A stretch of DNA of 64,000 nt, from positions 3,404,501 through 3,468,500 of the forward strand of contig NZ_JADBDT010000001.1 in the NCBI RefSeq assembly GCF_014873485.1. The letters are read 5' to 3'. Source of the DNA: Sphingopyxis sp. OAS728 (lineage in GTDB: Bacteria; Pseudomonadota; Alphaproteobacteria; Sphingomonadales; Sphingomonadaceae). This document shows, one piece after another, positions 8,588 through 41,127 of this stretch (positions are counted from its first letter, which is position 1; every line of letters starts with the position of its first letter). The position numbers were made by a program, and so were the translations under genes. The notes beneath the pieces were generated by a model. The model was not told the DNA's origin. It searched no databases and saw only the letters and a list, made by a program, of their open reading frames with translations.

Positions 8588-9634
8588 ATGATGGACCATG
8601 AAACATCGATCGGGCGCGACACATCGGCGCTTTTGCTGAGTGGCTTCGGGACGGAGCCGACCTGGCCGCCCCGCGCGATAGGCGGGCCCGCTCGCGACGG
8701 TGTCGCGTCGCCCTTGCTGTTCGTCGGCGCGCCGACCGATGTGCCCGACACGACATCGCTCCCGGACGTGCGGCTCGCCATGACGCGTCCGCCGTCGCGC
8801 GCGGCGGGGTCGATCCGGCAAAATCCCACGCTCGATATCGTCTGGCTGGCGGCGGCGGACACGATCGAAGGCGAAATGCTTGGCGACATCTGCGCCGCCG
8901 TGGGCGAGCAGGGCTGCAACCTTGTTTGCGAAACCTCGCTGGCGGCGCTCGATCGCGTGGTCGCGGCGATCCCCGCGTCGCTTCCCGTACAATTTCTCGT
9001 CGACGCCGATCCGACCGACCGGCTTGTCGCCTTGGCGGCGGCGCGGCGGACGCGGCATGCGGTGTTCCATGATATCGCGCGCGACGATGCGATGGAGCGG
9101 ATCGACCGGTTGCAGGAAGAGGTGGCGCGCATTTCGCGTTTACTCGGCGACCTCGCGGGGCAAAGGGGCGGGCTTCCCGGCACCCCCACAGGCTTTGCGC
9201 CGCGAAGCGACGATGTGGCCGACCATGTGGGACAGGTACGCGCGCCGGGACGTGATTTTGCGGCGATGCCGCGCAGCTTCGTTCCCGAAGAGCGGGTGCT
9301 CGACCGGCAGCGCGCCAAGGCGGTGCGGCGGATGCTGCGCCAGCGACGGATGCGCGAACAATATTTCCCCGCCGACCTGTTCGCCGATCCGGCGTGGGAC
9401 ATGCTGCTCGACCTTTATGCCGCGCGGCTCGAGCGTCAGCCGGTGTCGGTGTCGAGCCTGTGCATCGCCGCCGCGGTTCCCGCGACGACCGCGCTGCGCT
9501 GGATCAAGACGATGACAGATGCGGGCCTGTTCCTGCGCGAGGACGACCCGCACGACGGCCGCCGCATTTTCATCGCGCTGGCCGAAGGCGCGTATGATGC
9601 GCTTGCCCGTTATTTCGAGGCGCTGGACGAATAG
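8588..9634 (+). CDS. MarR-like winged-helix protein with N-terminal extension
   Basis: A 348-residue protein. The C-terminal 100 residues look like a MarR-type winged helix: LLDLYAARLERQPVSVSSLCIAAAVPATTALRWIKTMTDAGLFLREDDPHDGRRIFIAL. Residues 70-160 alternate strands and helices like a receiver or Rossmann-type half (TLDIVWLAAAD, PVQFLVDADP), without phosphorylation residues. A helical stretch about 165-190 may mediate dimerisation. The GGGGTAGG upstream fits an initiation site. Ligand and targets are unknown, and no neighbour suggests them. Confidence 0.75.
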   Translation: MMDHETSIGRDTSALLLSGFGTEPTWPPRAIGGPARDGVASPLLFVGAPTDVPDTTSLPDVRLAMTRPPSRAAGSIRQNPTLDIVWLAAADTIEGEMLGDICAAVGEQGCNLVCETSLAALDRVVAAIPASLPVQFLVDADPTDRLVALAAARRTRHAVFHDIARDDAMERIDRLQEEVARISRLLGDLAGQRGGLPGTPTGFAPRSDDVADHVGQVRAPGRDFAAMPRSFVPEERVLDRQRAKAVRRMLRQRRMREQYFPADLFADPAWDMLLDLYAARLERQPVSVSSLCIAAAVPATTALRWIKTMTDAGLFLREDDPHDGRRIFIALAEGAYDALARYFEALDE

Positions 9635-20049: not shown

Positions 20050-20426
20050 GATGCCTCCACCCGGAATTTCTCGAACGCGAGATTAGCACGATGAAAACAA
20101 AATAAGAACGAAATTTGATCGGCATCGGAGCTTTCGAGAGCGACGTAAGGAAAATAATCCTTTCCTACATTATCCAAATAGGTTCAAAATCATTCCGATT
20201 CATTCCATGTGATTCGGGAGATGGAGCTATGGGGCGTGAGGCGGCGCTGGATTCGCGGGGGAAATCGGGGGAGAAGGGCGGCGTGGGAGAGGGGGCCCAC
20301 CCTGCTGCGACTAGCCAGCGAGCTGGCAAGTCTCGCACCCCCTCCCGCAAGCGGGAGGGGAGCAAGGCGCGCGGCGGGGCTGGGTCCCGGATCAAGTCCG
20401 GGGTTCGCGAGCGGGAGAATCCCTTC
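20050..20426. other. Gene-poor 377-base gap with palindromic mosaic
   Basis: The first 150 bases are AT-richer and hold the presumed tcmP promoter. From about 20300 the sequence becomes GC-rich and carries three palindromic pieces: GCCAGC/GCTGGC near 20315, a 10-bp perfect stem CCCCTCCCGC/GCGGGAGGGG at 20339-20360 with a two-base loop, and one arm of repeat family A at 20384-20403. No gene is supported here. Confidence 0.7.
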
Positions 20427-21029
20427 ATGCCGGGACTGCGCGTGCGGTCGGACGGGTGGACGGCGGCGCGGACGCGGGTGTTCCTCGCGACGCTGGGGCG
20501 CACGGGGTGCGTCACCGATGCGGCGCGGGTGGCGGGGGTCAGCACGACCTCGGTCAACCGGTCGCGTGCGCTGTTTCCGCCGTTCGACACGGCGTGCGGT
20601 GAGGCGATCGCGCGGGCGCTGCGCGGGCTGGAGGCGGTCGCTTACGAGCGCGCGGTTGCGGGGCGCGAGATGGTCGTCATTCGGGACGGGCGCGAGGTCG
20701 AGCGGCGGATCATGCCGTCGGATTCGATGCTGGGGCTGCTGATCAAGCGCGGCGACCTGAAAGGCGGCCAGAATCTGCATCTGACGGCCGAGGAGGCCGC
20801 GGCCTATGTGCTGCCCGCGGCGGTCGCGCACCGTTTCCTGTCGGTCGACGAGTTTTACGGCGGCATCACCTTTGACGGGCGCGACGGCGGCAAGGTGCAG
20901 CGGCCGACGTCCGAGGAGACCGACGCGGCGATCATCGCGCGGCTCGCCATCCTGCGCAAGCAGCGCGGATGGGAGCGCATGTTGTGCGACGAATGCGGCG
21001 CGACGATCCACCCGGGTCGGGACGACTAG
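20427..21029 (+). CDS. Small-terminase-like helix-turn-helix protein (orphan)
   Basis: A 200-residue protein with an N-terminal helix-turn-helix (FLATLGRTGCVTDAARVAGVSTTSVNRSRALFP). The C-terminus PTSEETDAAIIARLAILRKQRGW closely matches the end of the protein at 36400, which precedes the GTA large terminase. The two are therefore paralogues of the GTA terS-like family. This copy adds a short tail with CDECG and has no terminase, portal or capsid gene next to it. The ATG at 20427 follows GGGAG by nine bases. Confidence 0.75.
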   Translation: MPGLRVRSDGWTAARTRVFLATLGRTGCVTDAARVAGVSTTSVNRSRALFPPFDTACGEAIARALRGLEAVAYERAVAGREMVVIRDGREVERRIMPSDSMLGLLIKRGDLKGGQNLHLTAEEAAAYVLPAAVAHRFLSVDEFYGGITFDGRDGGKVQRPTSEETDAAIIARLAILRKQRGWERMLCDECGATIHPGRDD

Positions 21030-34530: not shown

Positions 34531-36123
34531 CTATCGGCGTTCGACCATCCCGAGGTTGATTGTTCGCGTGATCCCGATCGCGTCCAGAAACGCCGCGTCG
34601 TGGCTGACGACGATCAGCGCGCCATCATAGGCGGCGAGGCCGGTTTCGATCGCGGTCAGCGAGTCGATATCGAGATGGTTGCCGGGTTCGTCGAGGATCA
34701 GCAGCTGTGGCGGCTGCGGCGCGCCGAGGACGCAGGCAAGCCCGGCGCGGAGCATCTGCCCGCCGCTCAGCGTGCCGACGACCTGGTCGGCGGCGTCGGC
34801 GCGGAAACGAAAGCGCGCGAGCGCGGCGCGGCACTGATTGTTCGTCGTCCCGGGATTGAGCGCGAGGAAATTGTCGGCGATCGAGCGCGCGGGATCGAGC
34901 AGGCCGACGCGCTGGTCGAAGAGCGCGAAGGCGACGCCGACGCGGACGTCGCCGGCCCACGGCGCGAGCGTGCCCGCGACCAGCGCGAGCAGCGTCGATT
35001 TGCCCGAGCCGTTGGGACCGGTGATCGCGACACGTTCGGGGCCGGTGATGGTCAGCGACAGATTTTCGATCACCGGCCGGCCTTCGGCATAGCCCGCGGT
35101 GACATGATCGAGGGCGAGCACCGTCCGCGACGCGGGAAGACCGGCCGAAGGCAGGCCGGCCGACAGCGGATCGATTACCTCGACCTTCGCACGCGCCGCG
35201 GCGAGACGCTCCTCGGCGTCGCCGCGCTGGCGTTCGGCGAGGCGGCTTCCCGCCGCGCGGGTTTCCTCGGCGCGGCGCTTGAGGCCGCCGATGACGATCT
35301 TGGGCATGTCGCCGCGCGCTGCCTTGGCGCGCCCGCGCGAGTCGCGGCGGTCCTGCTTTTCGGTCGCCACCTGCGCCTGCCGCTGCGCGGCATCGGCGCG
35401 CTTTTCGGCACCCGCGAGTTCGGCCTCGACCGCCGCCTGCTCGATATCCTTGCGCGCGCGATACGCGCTCCAGCCGCCGCCGTAGCGCGTGCCGCCAAGG
35501 CTGGTCAGTTCGACGATCGCGTCCATTTCCTCGAGCAATTCGCGGTCGTGGCTGACGACGATCGCGCCGCCGCGCCAGCGGGCGAGCAGGTCGCGCACCG
35601 CGTCGCGGCCCGCGCGGTCGAGATTGTTGGTGGGCTCGTCGAGGAGCAAGAAATCGGGCGCGGCGAACATCGCCCCGGCGAGCGCGGCGCGCGTGCGCTG
35701 GCCGCCCGAGAGCTGCGCGAGCGGGGTGTCGGCGGGAAGTGGCAGGCCGACCCCCGCGAGCGCTTCGTCGATCCGCGCTTCGAGCGTCCAGTCGGCGTCG
35801 CCGATTTCGTCGACGCTGGCTTCGCCGGCCTCGGCCTTGCGGAGCAGCGCGAGCGCGCCCCGCGCGCCGAACAGGTCGGCGATCGTCTCGTGCGGCGCGA
35901 CCCGCACCGTCTGGCGGAGCATCGCGATGCTGCCGTGAACCCCGATGCTGCCCGATGCGGGCGTCAGTTCGCCGGTCAGCAGGCGCAGCAGCGTCGATTT
36001 GCCGACGCCGTTGCGGCCGACGATGCCGGCGCGTTCGGACTGGAAATTGAGGTCGAGGCCCGAAAGGACGGCGCGGCCGTCAGGCGTGGACCAGCTGAGA
36101 TTGGAGATTGTGATGGCGGGCAT
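34531..36123 (-). CDS. ABC-F ATPase
   Basis: A 530-residue duplicated ATPase without membrane helices. Walker A loops GRNGVGKST and GPNGSGKST, two signature LSGGQ loops and Walker B LLDEPTNNLD and ILDEPGNHLD are present, with a long charged linker between the halves. The ABC-F class rescues or tunes ribosomes; this one resembles a general rather than resistance type. The ATG at 36123 has AGGAAAG nine bases upstream. Confidence 0.9.
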   Translation of the reverse strand: MPAITISNLSWSTPDGRAVLSGLDLNFQSERAGIVGRNGVGKSTLLRLLTGELTPASGSIGVHGSIAMLRQTVRVAPHETIADLFGARGALALLRKAEAGEASVDEIGDADWTLEARIDEALAGVGLPLPADTPLAQLSGGQRTRAALAGAMFAAPDFLLLDEPTNNLDRAGRDAVRDLLARWRGGAIVVSHDRELLEEMDAIVELTSLGGTRYGGGWSAYRARKDIEQAAVEAELAGAEKRADAAQRQAQVATEKQDRRDSRGRAKAARGDMPKIVIGGLKRRAEETRAAGSRLAERQRGDAEERLAAARAKVEVIDPLSAGLPSAGLPASRTVLALDHVTAGYAEGRPVIENLSLTITGPERVAITGPNGSGKSTLLALVAGTLAPWAGDVRVGVAFALFDQRVGLLDPARSIADNFLALNPGTTNNQCRAALARFRFRADAADQVVGTLSGGQMLRAGLACVLGAPQPPQLLILDEPGNHLDIDSLTAIETGLAAYDGALIVVSHDAAFLDAIGITRTINLGMVERR

Positions 36124-36260
36124 GGACATGGACTTTCCTGGCGGCAAGGCGGGGCGTTGCGGGCAGGTATTGATCCATGGCGAAAGTCTCCGGTTGGCGG
36201 GCCGATGTAGAGGCTGCGGTTGCGGTACGCAAGCCGGACGCGATACGCCGCTATGATGCT

Positions 36261-36279
36261 AATAACCAAATAGGTTATT
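36261..36279. promoter_or_regulatory. Palindrome AATAACC-AAATA-GGTTATT, orphan operator candidate
   Basis: A perfect 7-bp inverted repeat with a five-base centre lies in an AT-rich island of a GC-rich genome, followed six bases later by TTGACA. The form is like operators of small winged-helix regulators, but no such gene is next to it. Confidence 0.5.
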
Positions 36280-36399
36280 TTATATTGACATCGTCACGCT
36301 GATATGGCACAAGTGTCACATCATGAAGAATTGCGAGTCGGGCCGGTGCCCCTTCCGATGCGGGGGGTAATCCGGCCCTTCTGCTTTTGGAGGTGGGCG

Positions 36400-36906
36400 A
36401 TGGATCTGGTGGTGAAAAGCGGGAAGGCGCGATTGCTGGTCAAGACGAAACGTGCGGCCCGCGAGCTTTCCGCGCGCAAGCGCGACGCGTTCATCCAGCA
36501 TCTGAGCGAGACCTGCAACGTGCGGCTGTCAGCCGAGCGGGTGGGCGTTTCCTTTTCGACCTTTTACAAGATTCGCCAGCGCGATCCGGCGTTTGCGGCC
36601 GCTTGGCAACAGGCGCTCGACGATGGCTATCAGCGGTTGGAGATGGGGTTGCTCCATGCCGCTTTGGCGGTGGTAGAGGGCGGGCGCCCGAATGGAAGCG
36701 AAACGAGCGACGGCGCGGTCATCGCGCCGATGACGATGGAGCAGGCGTTTCGGGTTCTGGGGCGCCACGAAGGGAGTGTTCGCGGCGGGAAGCTGCGCAG
36801 CCTCCGTATTGGCAAGGGCAAGATGCCGACGTCGGAAGAAACCGATGCGGAGGTGTTGAAGCGGCTTGCGATCCTGCGACGTCAGCGCGGCTGGGATCAG
36901 CTGTAG
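36400..36906 (+). CDS. GTA small-terminase-like protein
   Basis: A 168-residue protein with an N-terminal helix-turn-helix (RKRDAFIQHLSETCNVRLSAERVGVSFSTFYKIRQRDPAF) and a C-terminal PTSEETDAEVLKRLAILRRQRGWDQL. It lies two bases before the large terminase, the position of gene 1 in Rhodobacter-type GTAs. GGAGG at 36389-36393 supports the start. It has a paralogue at 20427. It probably once guided packaging; with the GTA broken, it has no evident partner. Confidence 0.8.
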   Translation: MDLVVKSGKARLLVKTKRAARELSARKRDAFIQHLSETCNVRLSAERVGVSFSTFYKIRQRDPAFAAAWQQALDDGYQRLEMGLLHAALAVVEGGRPNGSETSDGAVIAPMTMEQAFRVLGRHEGSVRGGKLRSLRIGKGKMPTSEETDAEVLKRLAILRRQRGWDQL

Positions 36907-36908
36907 CG

Positions 36909-38117
36909 ATGGTGCAGGCGACACGCGACGTCGTCGGCGATTTGCTGGAGCTGTTGGGAACGCTGACGCCGGGCCAGCTGCGGCGATTGATGCGCGACCT
37001 TCCGATCAAACATCGGCGCGAGCTCGTCGAGCGTTGGCAGGGCTGGGCGCAACCCGGGCAATGCGAGCCGTCGGGCGATTGGCGCATCTGGATGATCCGC
37101 GCCGGGCGCGGGTTCGGCAAGACGCGCGCGGGGGCGGAATGGATCAGCGAATGGGCGCGGATGCTGCCCGAGGCACGGATCGCGCTGGTCGCGGCGAACG
37201 ATGCCGACGGGCGCCGCGTGATGATCGAGGGGCCGAGCGGGCTGCTGGCTGTGGCGCGATCGGACGAAGAACCGATGTGGCGTGAAGGATTGCGCGAATT
37301 GCATTTCAGCAGCGGTGCGGTGGCGACGCTCTATTCGGCGGCGGCGGCGGAGAATCTGCGCGGGCCCGAGCATCATGTCGCCTGGTGCGACGAACTGGCG
37401 AAATGGCCGCAGGGCGATGCGGCGTGGGACAATCTGATGATGGGGTTGCGGCTGAAGCCTTCGGCGCTCGAGACGAGCGACAGCCTCGACGTCGCGACGA
37501 TGGACCTGGAGGGCGCGGTCACCAGCGATGCGATCGCGGCGCGCGATCTGGATGCGGGGCGCTGGGATGGCGCGGAGCTGGAGCTGTTCGTCACCGACTG
37601 GAGCGCGCCCGAGGTTGCGCCGGTCACGGTGGCGCGTGGATCGGTGGGGGCGATCGAGCGGCGCGGGCCGGCCTTTGCGGTGGAGTTGCAGGGCGTGACG
37701 CGGGTGCTCGACCGGCCGGTGTGCCCGGCGACGTCGCCGTCGTGCCGCGCGATGCTTGGCGACCGGGCGTGCCGGGTCGACCTGACGCCGCTGACGCATG
37801 TGCGCCGGGTCGTCGCGGTCGACGGGCGCATGGTGACGCTCGATGCCGCGGTGCCGGGGATGGCGTTCGGCGAGCTTCTGTGGATCGAGGGCGCCAATTG
37901 CGGATTGGCGAGCCCGGTGATCGCGGTCGACGAGGCGGTGCTGCATTTGGCCGAAGCGCCGGCGTTTGCGGTCGCAGGGCCGGTGCGCGTGCGGCTCACC
38001 GAAGGGTGCGACAAGCAGCTTGCGACGTGCCGCGACCGCTTTGCGAACGCGATCAATTTTCGCGGCGAGGCCCACTTGCCCGGCAATGATTTGCTGACGC
38101 GCTATCCCGGTGGCTGA
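36909..38117 (+). pseudogene. In-frame fusion of GTA large terminase N-terminus and DUF2163 tail protein
   Basis: A 402-residue open frame joins two GTA genes. Residues 1-182 are the large terminase ATPase with Walker A GRGFGKTRAGAEW (66-78) and Walker B HHVAWCDELAKW (155-166), cut after NLMMGLRL. From about 183 (nucleotide near 37455) the sequence is the DUF2163 tail protein, with VTSDAIAARDLDAGRWDGAELELFVTDW and the Cys-rich CPATSPSCRAMLGDRACRVDL. The nuclease domain and all genes normally between (portal, protease, capsid, tail tube, tape measure) are absent. It cannot do either original job. The frame is open, so the deletion is recent or the fusion is tolerated. Confidence 0.85.
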
Positions 38118-38427
38118 GGTTGGAGCGCGCGCCTTTGCGGCGGCGCGGGCGATGGTTGGCGTGGGGTTCCGGCCGCAAGGGAGCGATCCGGCGACGGGGC
38201 TCGATTGTGTGGGGCTGGTGTGGGCCGCCTATGCGGCGGCGGGATGCCGGCTGGTGCGGCCGGTCGGTTTGCCGCCGCCGCGGCCGATGGACGCGAAACG
38301 CTGGTCTGGCGCGCCGATCTGGCAGCGCTGGCGCTCACGGTGGGGCATGTCGTGGCGTTGGAGGATGGTAGCCGTTGGCGGCTGGCAGCGCGGACGGTAC
38401 GCGGGAGTGACATCCTGCTGGAGCTGA
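38110..38427 (+). pseudogene. GTA NlpC/P60-like cell wall peptidase, truncated
   Basis: Only the first 57 or so residues match the NlpC/P60 peptidase of GTA tails: AFAAARAMVGVGFRPQGSDPATGLDCVGLVW, including the catalytic Cys. The start GTG overlaps the fusion gene stop by eight bases. After about 38282 the real homology moves to another frame, and this frame continues as out-of-frame tail sequence to 38427. The catalytic His part is lost. Confidence 0.75.
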
Positions 38428-39416
38428 GGCGCCACGAGCCGCTGCCTGCCGCCGAGGTTCCGGCCGAACCGGGCGTTCCGGTCAGCGCGCCCGACTGGCC
38501 CGACGCCGTCGGGTCGGTTCGCCTGTTCGACCTTCCCAACATCGGAAGTCCGGCGGCATCGGCGCCGCGATTGTTGATTGCCGGCGCTGGTAGCAACGAT
38601 GGCTGGCGCGGCGCCGATTCCTGGTTCGTCGCGTCGCCCGGTGCCGAACCGATCCCGGTCGGCACCGTGCGTCCGGCCGCGGCTCTCGGCGCGCTAGCCG
38701 AGCCGCTCGCCGCAGGGAGCGATTGCCTGTTCGATCTTTCGAACAGCGTCGAGGTCCAGCTGGTCAATCCCGCGATGACATTGGAATCGGTCGGCGACGC
38801 CGCGCTGCTGGGCGGCGTGAACCGGGCGATGGTGAGCGGCGAGTTGCTGCAGTTCGGCGTCGCCGAGGTTATTGGACCCGGTCGCTGGCGCCTCACGCGC
38901 TTGCTGCGCGGGCGGGCCGGGACCGACAGCGGAATGACCCATTTGGCCGGGGCGCCGTTCGTTATGCTCGATGATCCGGCGCTGTTGACACTGTCCGAGA
39001 CCCTTGCTGCTTTGGGAGAAAACGGCGCGGCGACCGTCGAATGGGCACCGCGGGGCGGGACCACGCTGGCCGAGGTTGACGTGCCGGTGGCCGGCCGGGC
39101 GCTGCAGCCGCTGGCTCCGGTGCACGGGAAGGTCCGCGCCGATGGAGCCGGCGGGGTGACGATCGACTGGGTGCGACGCAGCCGCGTCGATACGGGGTGG
39201 CGCGACCATGTCGATCAGCCCCTTGGTGAAGCAACCGAGGCATGGCGCATTGCACTGGTACCACCCATTCCGGGGATCGGGCCGTGGGCAAGCGTGTCGC
39301 CGACGTTGAATATCGGTGCCACCGACCTCGCAATATTGCCGCCCGGCTGCGCGATCGAAATCCGGCAGGTGGGGGATTTCGCGCTGTCGCCGCCCCTGTC
39401 CCTGCCATTGACGTAA
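38283..39416 (+). pseudogene. C-terminal remnant of GTA host-specificity/tail protein (gene 15-like)
   Basis: About 377 residues with the character of the C-terminal part of the very long GTA baseplate protein (ADGRETLVWRADLAALALTVG onward, then beta-rich segments such as GRWRLTRLLRGRAGTDSGM and a fibronectin-like region VRADGAGGVTIDWVRRSRVDTGW). The N-terminal part, with its TIM-barrel domain, is gone. The frame differs from the peptidase remnant, so a deletion joined them out of frame. It has no own clear start. Confidence 0.75.
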
Positions 39417-39427
39417 AGGATTGAGCC

Positions 39428-39880
39428 ATGACCGATATGCCGACCACACCGCGCTTCGCGTTACCGTTACTTGCCGTAGCACAGGCGCAGAAAGAGGTGA
39501 CGCACAACGAAGCCCTGACGCTGCTCGATGCCTTGATTCATGCTGCTGTCGAAGCCGGGCCGCTTGCCGTGCCGCCCTCAAGTCCCGTCGACGGGCAATG
39601 CTGGATCGTGGGCGCGGCACCGACGGGCGCCTGGACGGGACAGGGAAATGCGATCGCGATCCGGACCGGGGCCGGGTGGCGATTTGCGCCGCCGCGCGAG
39701 GGGATGCGGGCGACGCGTCTGACCGATGGCGCACAGCTTCGTTTCGATGGGGGCGTATGGGTGGGCCCGGGGACAGTCGCGGCGCCTTCGGGCGGGTCGG
39801 TAATCGACACCCAGGCACGCAGCGCGCTTTCGACATTGATCCTTCAGCTCGCCGCGCAGGGTCTTCTGATTTCAGGCTGA
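39428..39880 (+). CDS. DUF2793 protein, terminal gene of the GTA cluster
   Basis: A 150-residue protein of the DUF2793 family, found at the end of alphaproteobacterial GTA and phage tail clusters. It has PRFALPLLAVAQAQKEVTHNEALTLLDAL near the start and a beta-rich GAWTGQGNAIAIRTGAGWRFAPPREG body. It may be a head or tail fibre part. It appears intact, unlike its upstream neighbours, and lies 11 bases after the broken tail gene. Confidence 0.85.
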   Translation: MTDMPTTPRFALPLLAVAQAQKEVTHNEALTLLDALIHAAVEAGPLAVPPSSPVDGQCWIVGAAPTGAWTGQGNAIAIRTGAGWRFAPPREGMRATRLTDGAQLRFDGGVWVGPGTVAAPSGGSVIDTQARSALSTLILQLAAQGLLISG

Positions 39881-40008: not shown

Positions 40009-41127
40009 ATGAGGAAGCTTGCCGTCGCTCTGGCGTTGGCCTCCACCACCCTGGCGTCGCCGGTTCTGGCGCGCGACAACTCCTGGTATGTTGGTGTGGG
40101 TGCTGGCGCAATGCTCGTCGAGGACCTCGATCTCGACATCGGCACGTTCAACAATGCCGGTACGCTCGATCACCGCGCTGGCTATGATGCCGAAGGTACC
40201 GTCGGTTATGACTTTGGCGGTTTCCGCGCAGAAGTCGAAGTCGGTTTCCGTGAAGCCGACATCAAGTCGGGCCGCTTCACGACCCCCGGCATCCCGCAGT
40301 CGGCTGCGGGAACGGGCGCTCTGGCGACCGGTTCATATGACCTCGCCGGCGATAGCAATGCGCTGAGCTTCATGGTCAACGGCCTGCTCGACTTCGGTGA
40401 CGACGACGGCCTTCAGGGCTTTGTCGGCGGTGGTGCCGGTATCGCCCGCGTTTCGGTTGAGCCGGTCTTTGCCGGCAACTTCCTCGACGATTCGGACACG
40501 GGCTTTGCCTGGCAGGCGATCGCGGGCGTCCGCGCTCCGCTGAGCGACAACATCGATGTTGGCCTGAAGTATCGCTTCTTCAACGCCGACAACATCGACC
40601 TGGTCGACCAGCTCGGCCGCGACGTTTCGACGCGCTTCCGTTCGCACTCGATCCTGGGTACGCTGACGTTCAACTTCGGTGGTGCTCCGGCGCCGGAACC
40701 GGTGGCTCCGCCGCCGCCCCCGCCCCCGCCGCCGCCTCCCCCGCCGCCTCCGCCGCCGCCGCCGGTCGTGGAATGCGCACCGGGACCGTATATCGTGTAC
40801 TTCGACTGGGATCAGTCGAACATCACGCCGGAAGCGGCTTCGACGCTCGACAACGCGATCAGCGCCTATAACCGTGGTTGCACGGGTACGCAGGTCATGC
40901 TCGCCGGTCACGCTGACCGTTCGGGTTCGGCCAAGTACAACGTCGGCCTGTCGGAACGCCGCAACACCGCGGTTCGCAGCTATCTCACCGCTCGCGGTAT
41001 CTCGGATGGCTCGATCAGCGCGCAGGCGTTCGGCGAAACCCGTCCGGCCGTTGCGACCGCCGACGGCGTCCGCAACGACCAGAACCGTCGCGTGGAAATC
41101 ACTTACGGTCCGAACTCGGGCATGTAA
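40009..41127 (+). CDS. OmpA-family outer membrane protein with proline-rich hinge
   Basis: A 372-residue protein with signal peptide (MRKLAVALALASTTLASPVLA), an eight-strand barrel (about 24-225), a hinge of about twenty consecutive prolines (near 229-250), and an OmpA C-terminal domain (about 255-372: YFDWDQSNITPEAASTLDNAI, GHADRSGSAKYNVGLSERRNTAVRSYL) that binds peptidoglycan. Codons are less biased toward GC than the neighbours, as in highly expressed genes. It is followed by a strong terminator. Confidence 0.95.
   Translation: MRKLAVALALASTTLASPVLARDNSWYVGVGAGAMLVEDLDLDIGTFNNAGTLDHRAGYDAEGTVGYDFGGFRAEVEVGFREADIKSGRFTTPGIPQSAAGTGALATGSYDLAGDSNALSFMVNGLLDFGDDDGLQGFVGGGAGIARVSVEPVFAGNFLDDSDTGFAWQAIAGVRAPLSDNIDVGLKYRFFNADNIDLVDQLGRDVSTRFRSHSILGTLTFNFGGAPAPEPVAPPPPPPPPPPPPPPPPPPPVVECAPGPYIVYFDWDQSNITPEAASTLDNAISAYNRGCTGTQVMLAGHADRSGSAKYNVGLSERRNTAVRSYLTARGISDGSISAQAFGETRPAVATADGVRNDQNRRVEITYGPNSGM

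Follow-up and report, generated by a model that had tools for sequence, protein, structure and literature searches.

A single open reading frame of Sphingopyxis sp. OAS728, lying in a 64,000-nucleotide stretch (the window), joins part of a GTA large terminase (TerL) to part of a tail protein, and the question raised by this locus is whether the chimera is a working protein, an error of assembly or debris of a decaying GTA cluster. Residues 1-182 of its translation correspond to the ATPase part only of TerL, with the terminase C-terminal part missing, and the remainder corresponds to gp13 (DUF2163) from about residue 54 to the end. Pfam placed Terminase_6N at residues 62-174 (profile positions 1-116 of 215), the hub N-terminal domain PF09931 at 182-291 (profile positions 51-160 only) and PF09356 at 319-394, and PHROGs agreed with Pfam in assigning terminase large subunit and tail assembly protein. 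The motifs GRGFGKT and VAWCDE, which we take to be Walker A and Walker B-like respectively, were both read within the first 182 residues. An earlier note made from the sequence had described a normal TerL ATPase with both Walker motifs in residues 1-182, followed by the C-terminal part of a DUF2163 tail protein without a stop codon, and the domains, the gp13 alignments and the open 402-aa translation bore this out. The ORF listing also allowed a longer version of the frame from an earlier start at 36387. The features of the locus are collected in Table 1.

Table 1. Features of the decayed GTA locus (positions in the window).
Feature	Position	Strand	Evidence
ABC-F type (presumed) ATPase gene, upstream flank, common with intact locus G081	34531..36147	-	Pfam ABC_tran; 91% nt identity over 100% in G081
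Conserved cluster leader, preceding the TerS start: TTGACA 36285-36290, G+C-rich hairpin 36340-36378	36245..36399	+	Relatives' alignment, folds
TerS (small terminase), open, 168 aa; probable start	36400..36906	+	phrog_4044 terminase small subunit, 1.6e-11; 79% to G023 TerS
Chimeric ORF TerL(1-182)::gp13/DUF2163(~54-end), 402 aa	36909..38117	+	Pfam, PHROGs, alignment to relatives
TerL N-terminal ATPase part	36909..37454	+	Pfam; 94% to LC81 TerL
Joint 1: at most 2 bp (TG) common to both arms; 11.5-12.1 kb missing	37453..37454	+	Alignment to relatives
gp13 C-terminal four fifths (DUF2163 / PF09931 + PF09356), baseplate hub protein	37453..38117	+	Pfam, PHROGs, relatives
gp14 (NlpC/P60) N-terminal fragment, first ~53-58 residues	38110..38269	+	90% to G081 gp14
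Joint 2: gp14::gp15, out of frame; 1 bp common exactly, or 5 bp with one mismatch	38265..38269	+	Relatives
gp15 (Rcc01698-like) C-terminal fragment, residues ~344-728	38269..39416	+	PF23666 (Rcc01698_C); 88% to G081 gp15
DUF2793 gene, open, last in cluster	39428..39880	+	PF10983
OmpA-family gene, downstream flank, synteny anchor	40009..41127	+	PF00691; anchor across genus and 16/20 family loci

The whole cluster of the relative G023 has the order TerS, TerL, portal, gp3.5 (DUF6127), protease, capsid, fibre-like gene, gp77-like adaptor, gp6, gp8, tail tube, gp10, gp11, gp12 (sheath and DUF2460), gp13, gp14, gp15, DUF2793 and OmpA, where the gene numbers (gp3.5-gp15) follow RcGTA and the fibre-like gene is labelled S74. 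The remnants TerS, TerL, gp13, gp14 and gp15 kept this order, and an intact relative, G081, carried its cluster between the same flanks, as is expected of a locus descended from an RcGTA-like (type I alphaproteobacterial) cluster. The locus differs from an intact cluster of this kind in lacking ten core genes, in carrying two deletion joints and in the expectation that no particle is made. G081 was also the closest match at the locus: the upstream gene, presumably of ABC-F type, matched over its full length, the OmpA protein was 98% identical, the gp13 and gp15 parts were 90% and 89% identical and the cluster was complete by coverage. This comparison with a close Sphingopyxis genome, which the earlier note had proposed, supports its claim of an internal deletion from an intact GTA gene order.

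Alignment to relatives placed joint 1 beside the breakpoint near 37455 that had been predicted. Among six left arms TerL was matched through 37454 in four and through 37453 in the other two (G081 and G008), and in each of the six right arms the match to gp13 began at 37453. The missing DNA came to 11,804 bp against G081, 12,002 bp against G006 (LC81), 12,119 bp against G101 and 11,539 bp against G008, more than the 8-10 kb first suggested. In these four loci the gap holds 12 genes, from portal to gp12, made up of ten core genes, the fibre-like gene and the gp77-like adaptor; the earlier note had given about ten genes for Rhodobacter-type GTAs. Joint 2, which the earlier note did not mention, marks a second deletion of 1,365 bp against G081, 1,362 bp against G101, 1,298 bp against G006 and 1,297 bp against G008. 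Across it gp14 and gp15 lie in different frames, and the gp15 fragment has lost its first ~343 residues and has no start of its own.

Because the arms share only 2 bp at joint 1, and 1 bp or 5 bp with a mismatch at joint 2, most of the cluster was probably removed by two deletions through illegitimate recombination between sites with almost no shared sequence. The first took ~12 kb, with its ends at codon 182 of terL and near codon 54 of gp13, and left the joint in frame by chance (one in three). The second took ~1.4 kb from gp14 into gp15 and left the frames unmatched. If the chimera is made from the remaining leader, it would be a motor ATPase without its nuclease half attached to a hub without its attachment start, and a protein of this composition most likely has no function. 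We consider it very likely that the chimera is real, probably young and in frame by chance, and that it is an ordinary step in the recurrent decay that left this RcGTA-like (type I) cluster a wreck.

The history of the locus also appears to include exchange between alleles. TerS and the start of TerL (36400-37454) were of the LC81/PAMC25046 allele (TerL 86-88% at the nucleotide level), and G081 (L133/L134) carried a diverged TerL/TerS allele (75% over three quarters), though it was the closest relative for gp13-gp15. This pattern points to allele exchange inside the cluster, which makes the locus a recombinant as well. Separately, the otherwise complete LC81 cluster had a gp14 lacking ~30 codons in frame (L032 19524-19850), among them the stretch that holds the likely catalytic cysteine.

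Decay of the cluster was assessed across the genus at the locus taken from 72 of 80 genomes (own included), with either the OmpA flank or the cluster as anchor; G009, G026, G060, G066, G072, G084, G095 and G097 were left out. A cluster was scored complete when each core gene except TerS was covered to at least 80% by some reference, a score that a frameshifted cluster could still reach and for which several references came from genomes scored complete with them. By this measure 40 clusters were complete, 17 had internal losses and 15 were cut by contig ends or stretch limits. Losses were therefore found in 17 of the 57 resolvable clusters (72 minus the 15 cut), own included, and many of the other carriers are drafts. 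The losses (G000, G005, G007, G010, G013, G014, G015, G020, G029, G032, G033, G034, G062, G064, G090, G093 and G103) ranged from one missing segment to nothing recognisable. Thirteen different joint sets were distinguished, with G010 and G033 alike and too little retained in G015, G034 and G090 for joint comparison; since later deletions can hide older common ones, the number of independent losses may differ from thirteen. Among the chimeric joints seen elsewhere in the genus are portal::gp13 (G064), gp11::gp15 and TerL::capsid (G032), and TerL::fibre-like, gp6::gp12 and gp12::gp12 (G062). Twenty family genomes, chosen for odd spacing or single matches in the chimera search or as comparison, added further losses, among them portal::gp12 (G117) and TerL::gp15 (G215), both with out-of-frame joints. 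It is possible, though we hold it only tentatively, that GTA clusters of Sphingopyxis collapse repeatedly and that each decayed genome is a recently born non-producer ('cheater') lineage. If so, the genus would offer a ready-made series in which to ask whether selection within populations favours the loss of GTAs.

Among the alternatives, the least improbable is that selection favours in-frame deletions in decaying clusters, avoiding polar effects on downstream genes, so that chimeras arise above chance. The same-frame joints of G064 and G062 and the gp11::gp15 joint of G032 speak for it. The earlier note had described the loss as one clean in-frame event, but a special meaning of this is not supported: the adjacent deletion at this locus is out of frame, and 6 of 15 clear gene-gene joints were in frame where about five were expected by chance (one third), three of the six in a single genome. 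Joints were counted in 73 stretches from the genus, which came from 72 genomes including this one, and in 20 from the family, and a script listed 18 of them. Dropped from these were G010 (the G033 joint again), F_G219 (where TerS and TerL are neighbours by nature) and the pair G005 and G029, whose left arm is mainly leader and which would both be in frame. Joint 1 of this locus, which the script missed as the gp13 alignment ran through the joint, was added by hand. Frame was judged from the alignment frames. The out-of-frame TerS::gp12 joint of G285, with a gap of 128 bp, fell outside the count by the gap limit. Looser counts gave 8 of 17 with G005 and G029 included, or 7 of 16 with the in-frame loss inside LC81 gp14, which is invisible to the script as LC81 is one of its references. 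We make no claim of an in-frame bias in GTA decay, and consider such selection very unlikely.

A second alternative is that selection maintains the chimera as a working protein, such as an ATPase that has gained a new role through its attached hub domain. The 402-codon open frame and the continued presence of the leader and TerS would fit this, but both partners are cut within domains, PF09931 starting at profile position 51 and Terminase_6N ending at 116 of 215, and no second case was found. End-to-end matches to the chimera were absent from all 79 other genus genomes, the longest other match (chimera residues 70-402) being in G091, whose locus has separate complete genes. An initial sample had 59 genomes besides this one; 49 of them matched one or both halves, and none matched end to end. 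The fusion was likewise absent from the matches listed from a family sample of 249 genomes (own included) and from 76 GTDB loci, a set from which records very near this genome may be left out. In a search of 5.8 billion proteins, none of the best 120 of 6,204 hits matched over the full length; the top hit scored 447 bits and query coverage was 67% or less. A homologous fusion would rank first; the chimera's own protein was also absent from these 120. Homologous fusions conserved in many genomes, which the earlier note named as the mark of a normal protein, thus appeared neither in the genus nor among these best hits, and the chimera does not belong to a conserved fusion family in either set.

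Selection on the remnants was measured using a home-made MG94-type codon model (F3x4, FastTree topology) in which the own branch had its own dN/dS. The gp13 part gave 0.081 on the own branch against 0.082 elsewhere (8 taxa; p ~2e-6 versus 1). The TerL part gave 0.062 against 0.080 (7 taxa; p ~5e-6 versus 1), on a branch that is not the split from G081 since the TerL arm is of a different allele than that of G081. The out-of-frame gp15 fragment gave 0.134 against 0.184 (8 taxa), DUF2793 gave 0.200 against 0.223 (7 taxa) and the OmpA control gave 0.097 against 0.158 (7 taxa). TerS, though whole, showed a weak, non-significant rise on the own branch, 0.296 against 0.116 (6 taxa, p = 0.10), did not differ significantly from neutrality there (p = 0.16 versus 1) and had a best-fitting neutral share of ~0.2. 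The neutral part of the own branch (dN/dS = 1) came to at most ~0.065 for the fused halves together and ~0.09 for the gp15 fragment, both limits taken at a drop of 1.92 lnL and interpolated.

Values far below 1 on the own branch for both halves would be expected if the chimera were kept by selection, and would count in favour of a working protein. However, the out-of-frame gp15 fragment, which cannot work as gp15 and so serves as a built-in control, was equally constrained, so the constraint reflects the time before the deletion and not function. Function of the chimera on the grounds of low dN/dS was therefore rejected, with the qualification that part of the gp15 fragment might still be expressed from a start codon further downstream. 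The own-branch rise of a pseudogene under relaxed selection was absent from gp13, TerL, gp15 and DUF2793, which probably means that the deletions are too young to show it. The earlier note had left the choice between a young deletion and a tolerated chimera and had proposed dN/dS on the two halves; the outcome favours youth and does not contradict tolerance. With the in-frame joints not clearly over-represented, we regard a selected working chimera as very improbable. The case shows a trap: low dN/dS over a chimeric ORF that is long and open is no evidence of function, since the neighbouring out-of-frame fragment gives the same signal.

That the joints are assembly errors, or that a mixed population still holds the missing 12 kb, would agree with the fusion being in one assembly only, but is scarcely credible given a single contig of 4,919,217 bases estimated 100% complete, two separate joints in one locus with neither at a long repeat, 16 other genus genomes with internal losses at other points (many of them drafts), and the failure to find capsid, portal, gp12 and tail tube in the assembly.

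The reading as a decayed cluster was followed through the rest of the genome. Capsid (PF05065) and portal (PF04860) had no match in the 4.92 Mb and both were matched in control genomes. Searches with the G023 gp12 and tail tube proteins, run without a control genome, gave no match in this genome, and tblastn with these proteins was positive in every genus locus scored complete. The other eight of the 12 missing genes were sought by DNA search alone, using the 11.9 kb missing stretch of LC81 as query. With 40 of 699 candidates scored, this gave at least 76 matches; the longest had 356 bp at 69%, and all others had ~100 bp or less. Relocation of the missing genes was rejected, as none was found by the family, protein and DNA searches at this depth of scoring (40/699).

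Portal, capsid, tail tube and sheath, the genes by which a working GTA was judged, were thus not found in this genome. From the absence of capsid and portal matches we infer a loss of particle production, in agreement with the earlier note, which had argued that loss of the capsid ends it. Judged on gene content, a cell that lacks the genes for portal, capsid and protease as well as those for tail tube and sheath would be unable to make GTA particles.

Most of the 76 DNA matches belonged to two short dispersed repeat families (~75 and ~45 bp), many on both strands at one place, which lie inside the LC81 cluster at L032 ~9130-9210 and ~9540-9590. The 356-bp match (3115843-3116198 of the genome) corresponds to LC81 sequence lying between the gp8 and tail tube genes, where an ORF had no Pfam match.

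Pseudogenised or lost GTA clusters have been reported for several alphaproteobacterial lineages in the passages available from PMC10883770, and the present locus resembles them in being a broken cluster whose relatives keep theirs. Unlike those cases its joints are exact and the break looks young, and those passages contain no TerL::gp13 chimera. In Rhizobiales, Sphingomonadales and Caulobacterales about half of the members carry GTA-like clusters, whose conservation varies (PMC9836097; also PMC6821227 and PMC9662315). The element of Viswanathan 2017, predicted in PMC6821227 to be RcGTA-like, is probably of the same element family and host order as the cluster studied here. Among the titles listed in literature searches, none concerned the decay of GTAs in Sphingopyxis or a chimera of this kind. 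Loss of GTA clusters is thus not new in itself, but one that is young, has exact joints and can be compared with a close relative whose site is intact would set producers beside fresh non-producers that are otherwise alike.

The leader was better kept across the genus than TerS itself (window 36245-36405), and TerS probably starts at 36400 rather than at the listed 36304, the first ~95 bp being conserved leader. A TTGACA-type element is followed by the hairpin, which stands directly 5' of the ribosome-binding site. A 60-base core gave BLAST matches in 61 of 93 loci, and a stricter motif was present in 50 of 73 genus stretches, with the hairpin fold in most of those. The outer stem was nearly invariant and the inner stem varied in sequence and length. 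The alignment-based fold was weak, with some inner pairs broken in up to 6 of 49 rows, and the single-sequence fold was unexceptional (z -1.7). A promoter scan found no full sigma-70 site in the leader, and no Rfam family scored above its gathering score. The leader is single copy in this genome and might act as a terminator/anti-terminator or as a translation leader. The Caulobacter GTA cluster is under anti-termination control at another place than this leader, as described in part of PMC11150451.

Two further observations were made in the window. A 304-aa ORF at 20115-21029, with no Pfam match, ends in a sequence resembling the GTA TerS C-terminal motif (PTSEETDA..LAILRKQRGW; ~50 bits to TerS references) and is possibly a stray TerS paralogue or a prophage relic. 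The OmpA-family gene is interrupted by a contig end in ~12 of 60 genus genomes, close to the part that encodes its proline-rich linker (window ~40680-40775), so that GTA loci are split from this flank in draft assemblies.
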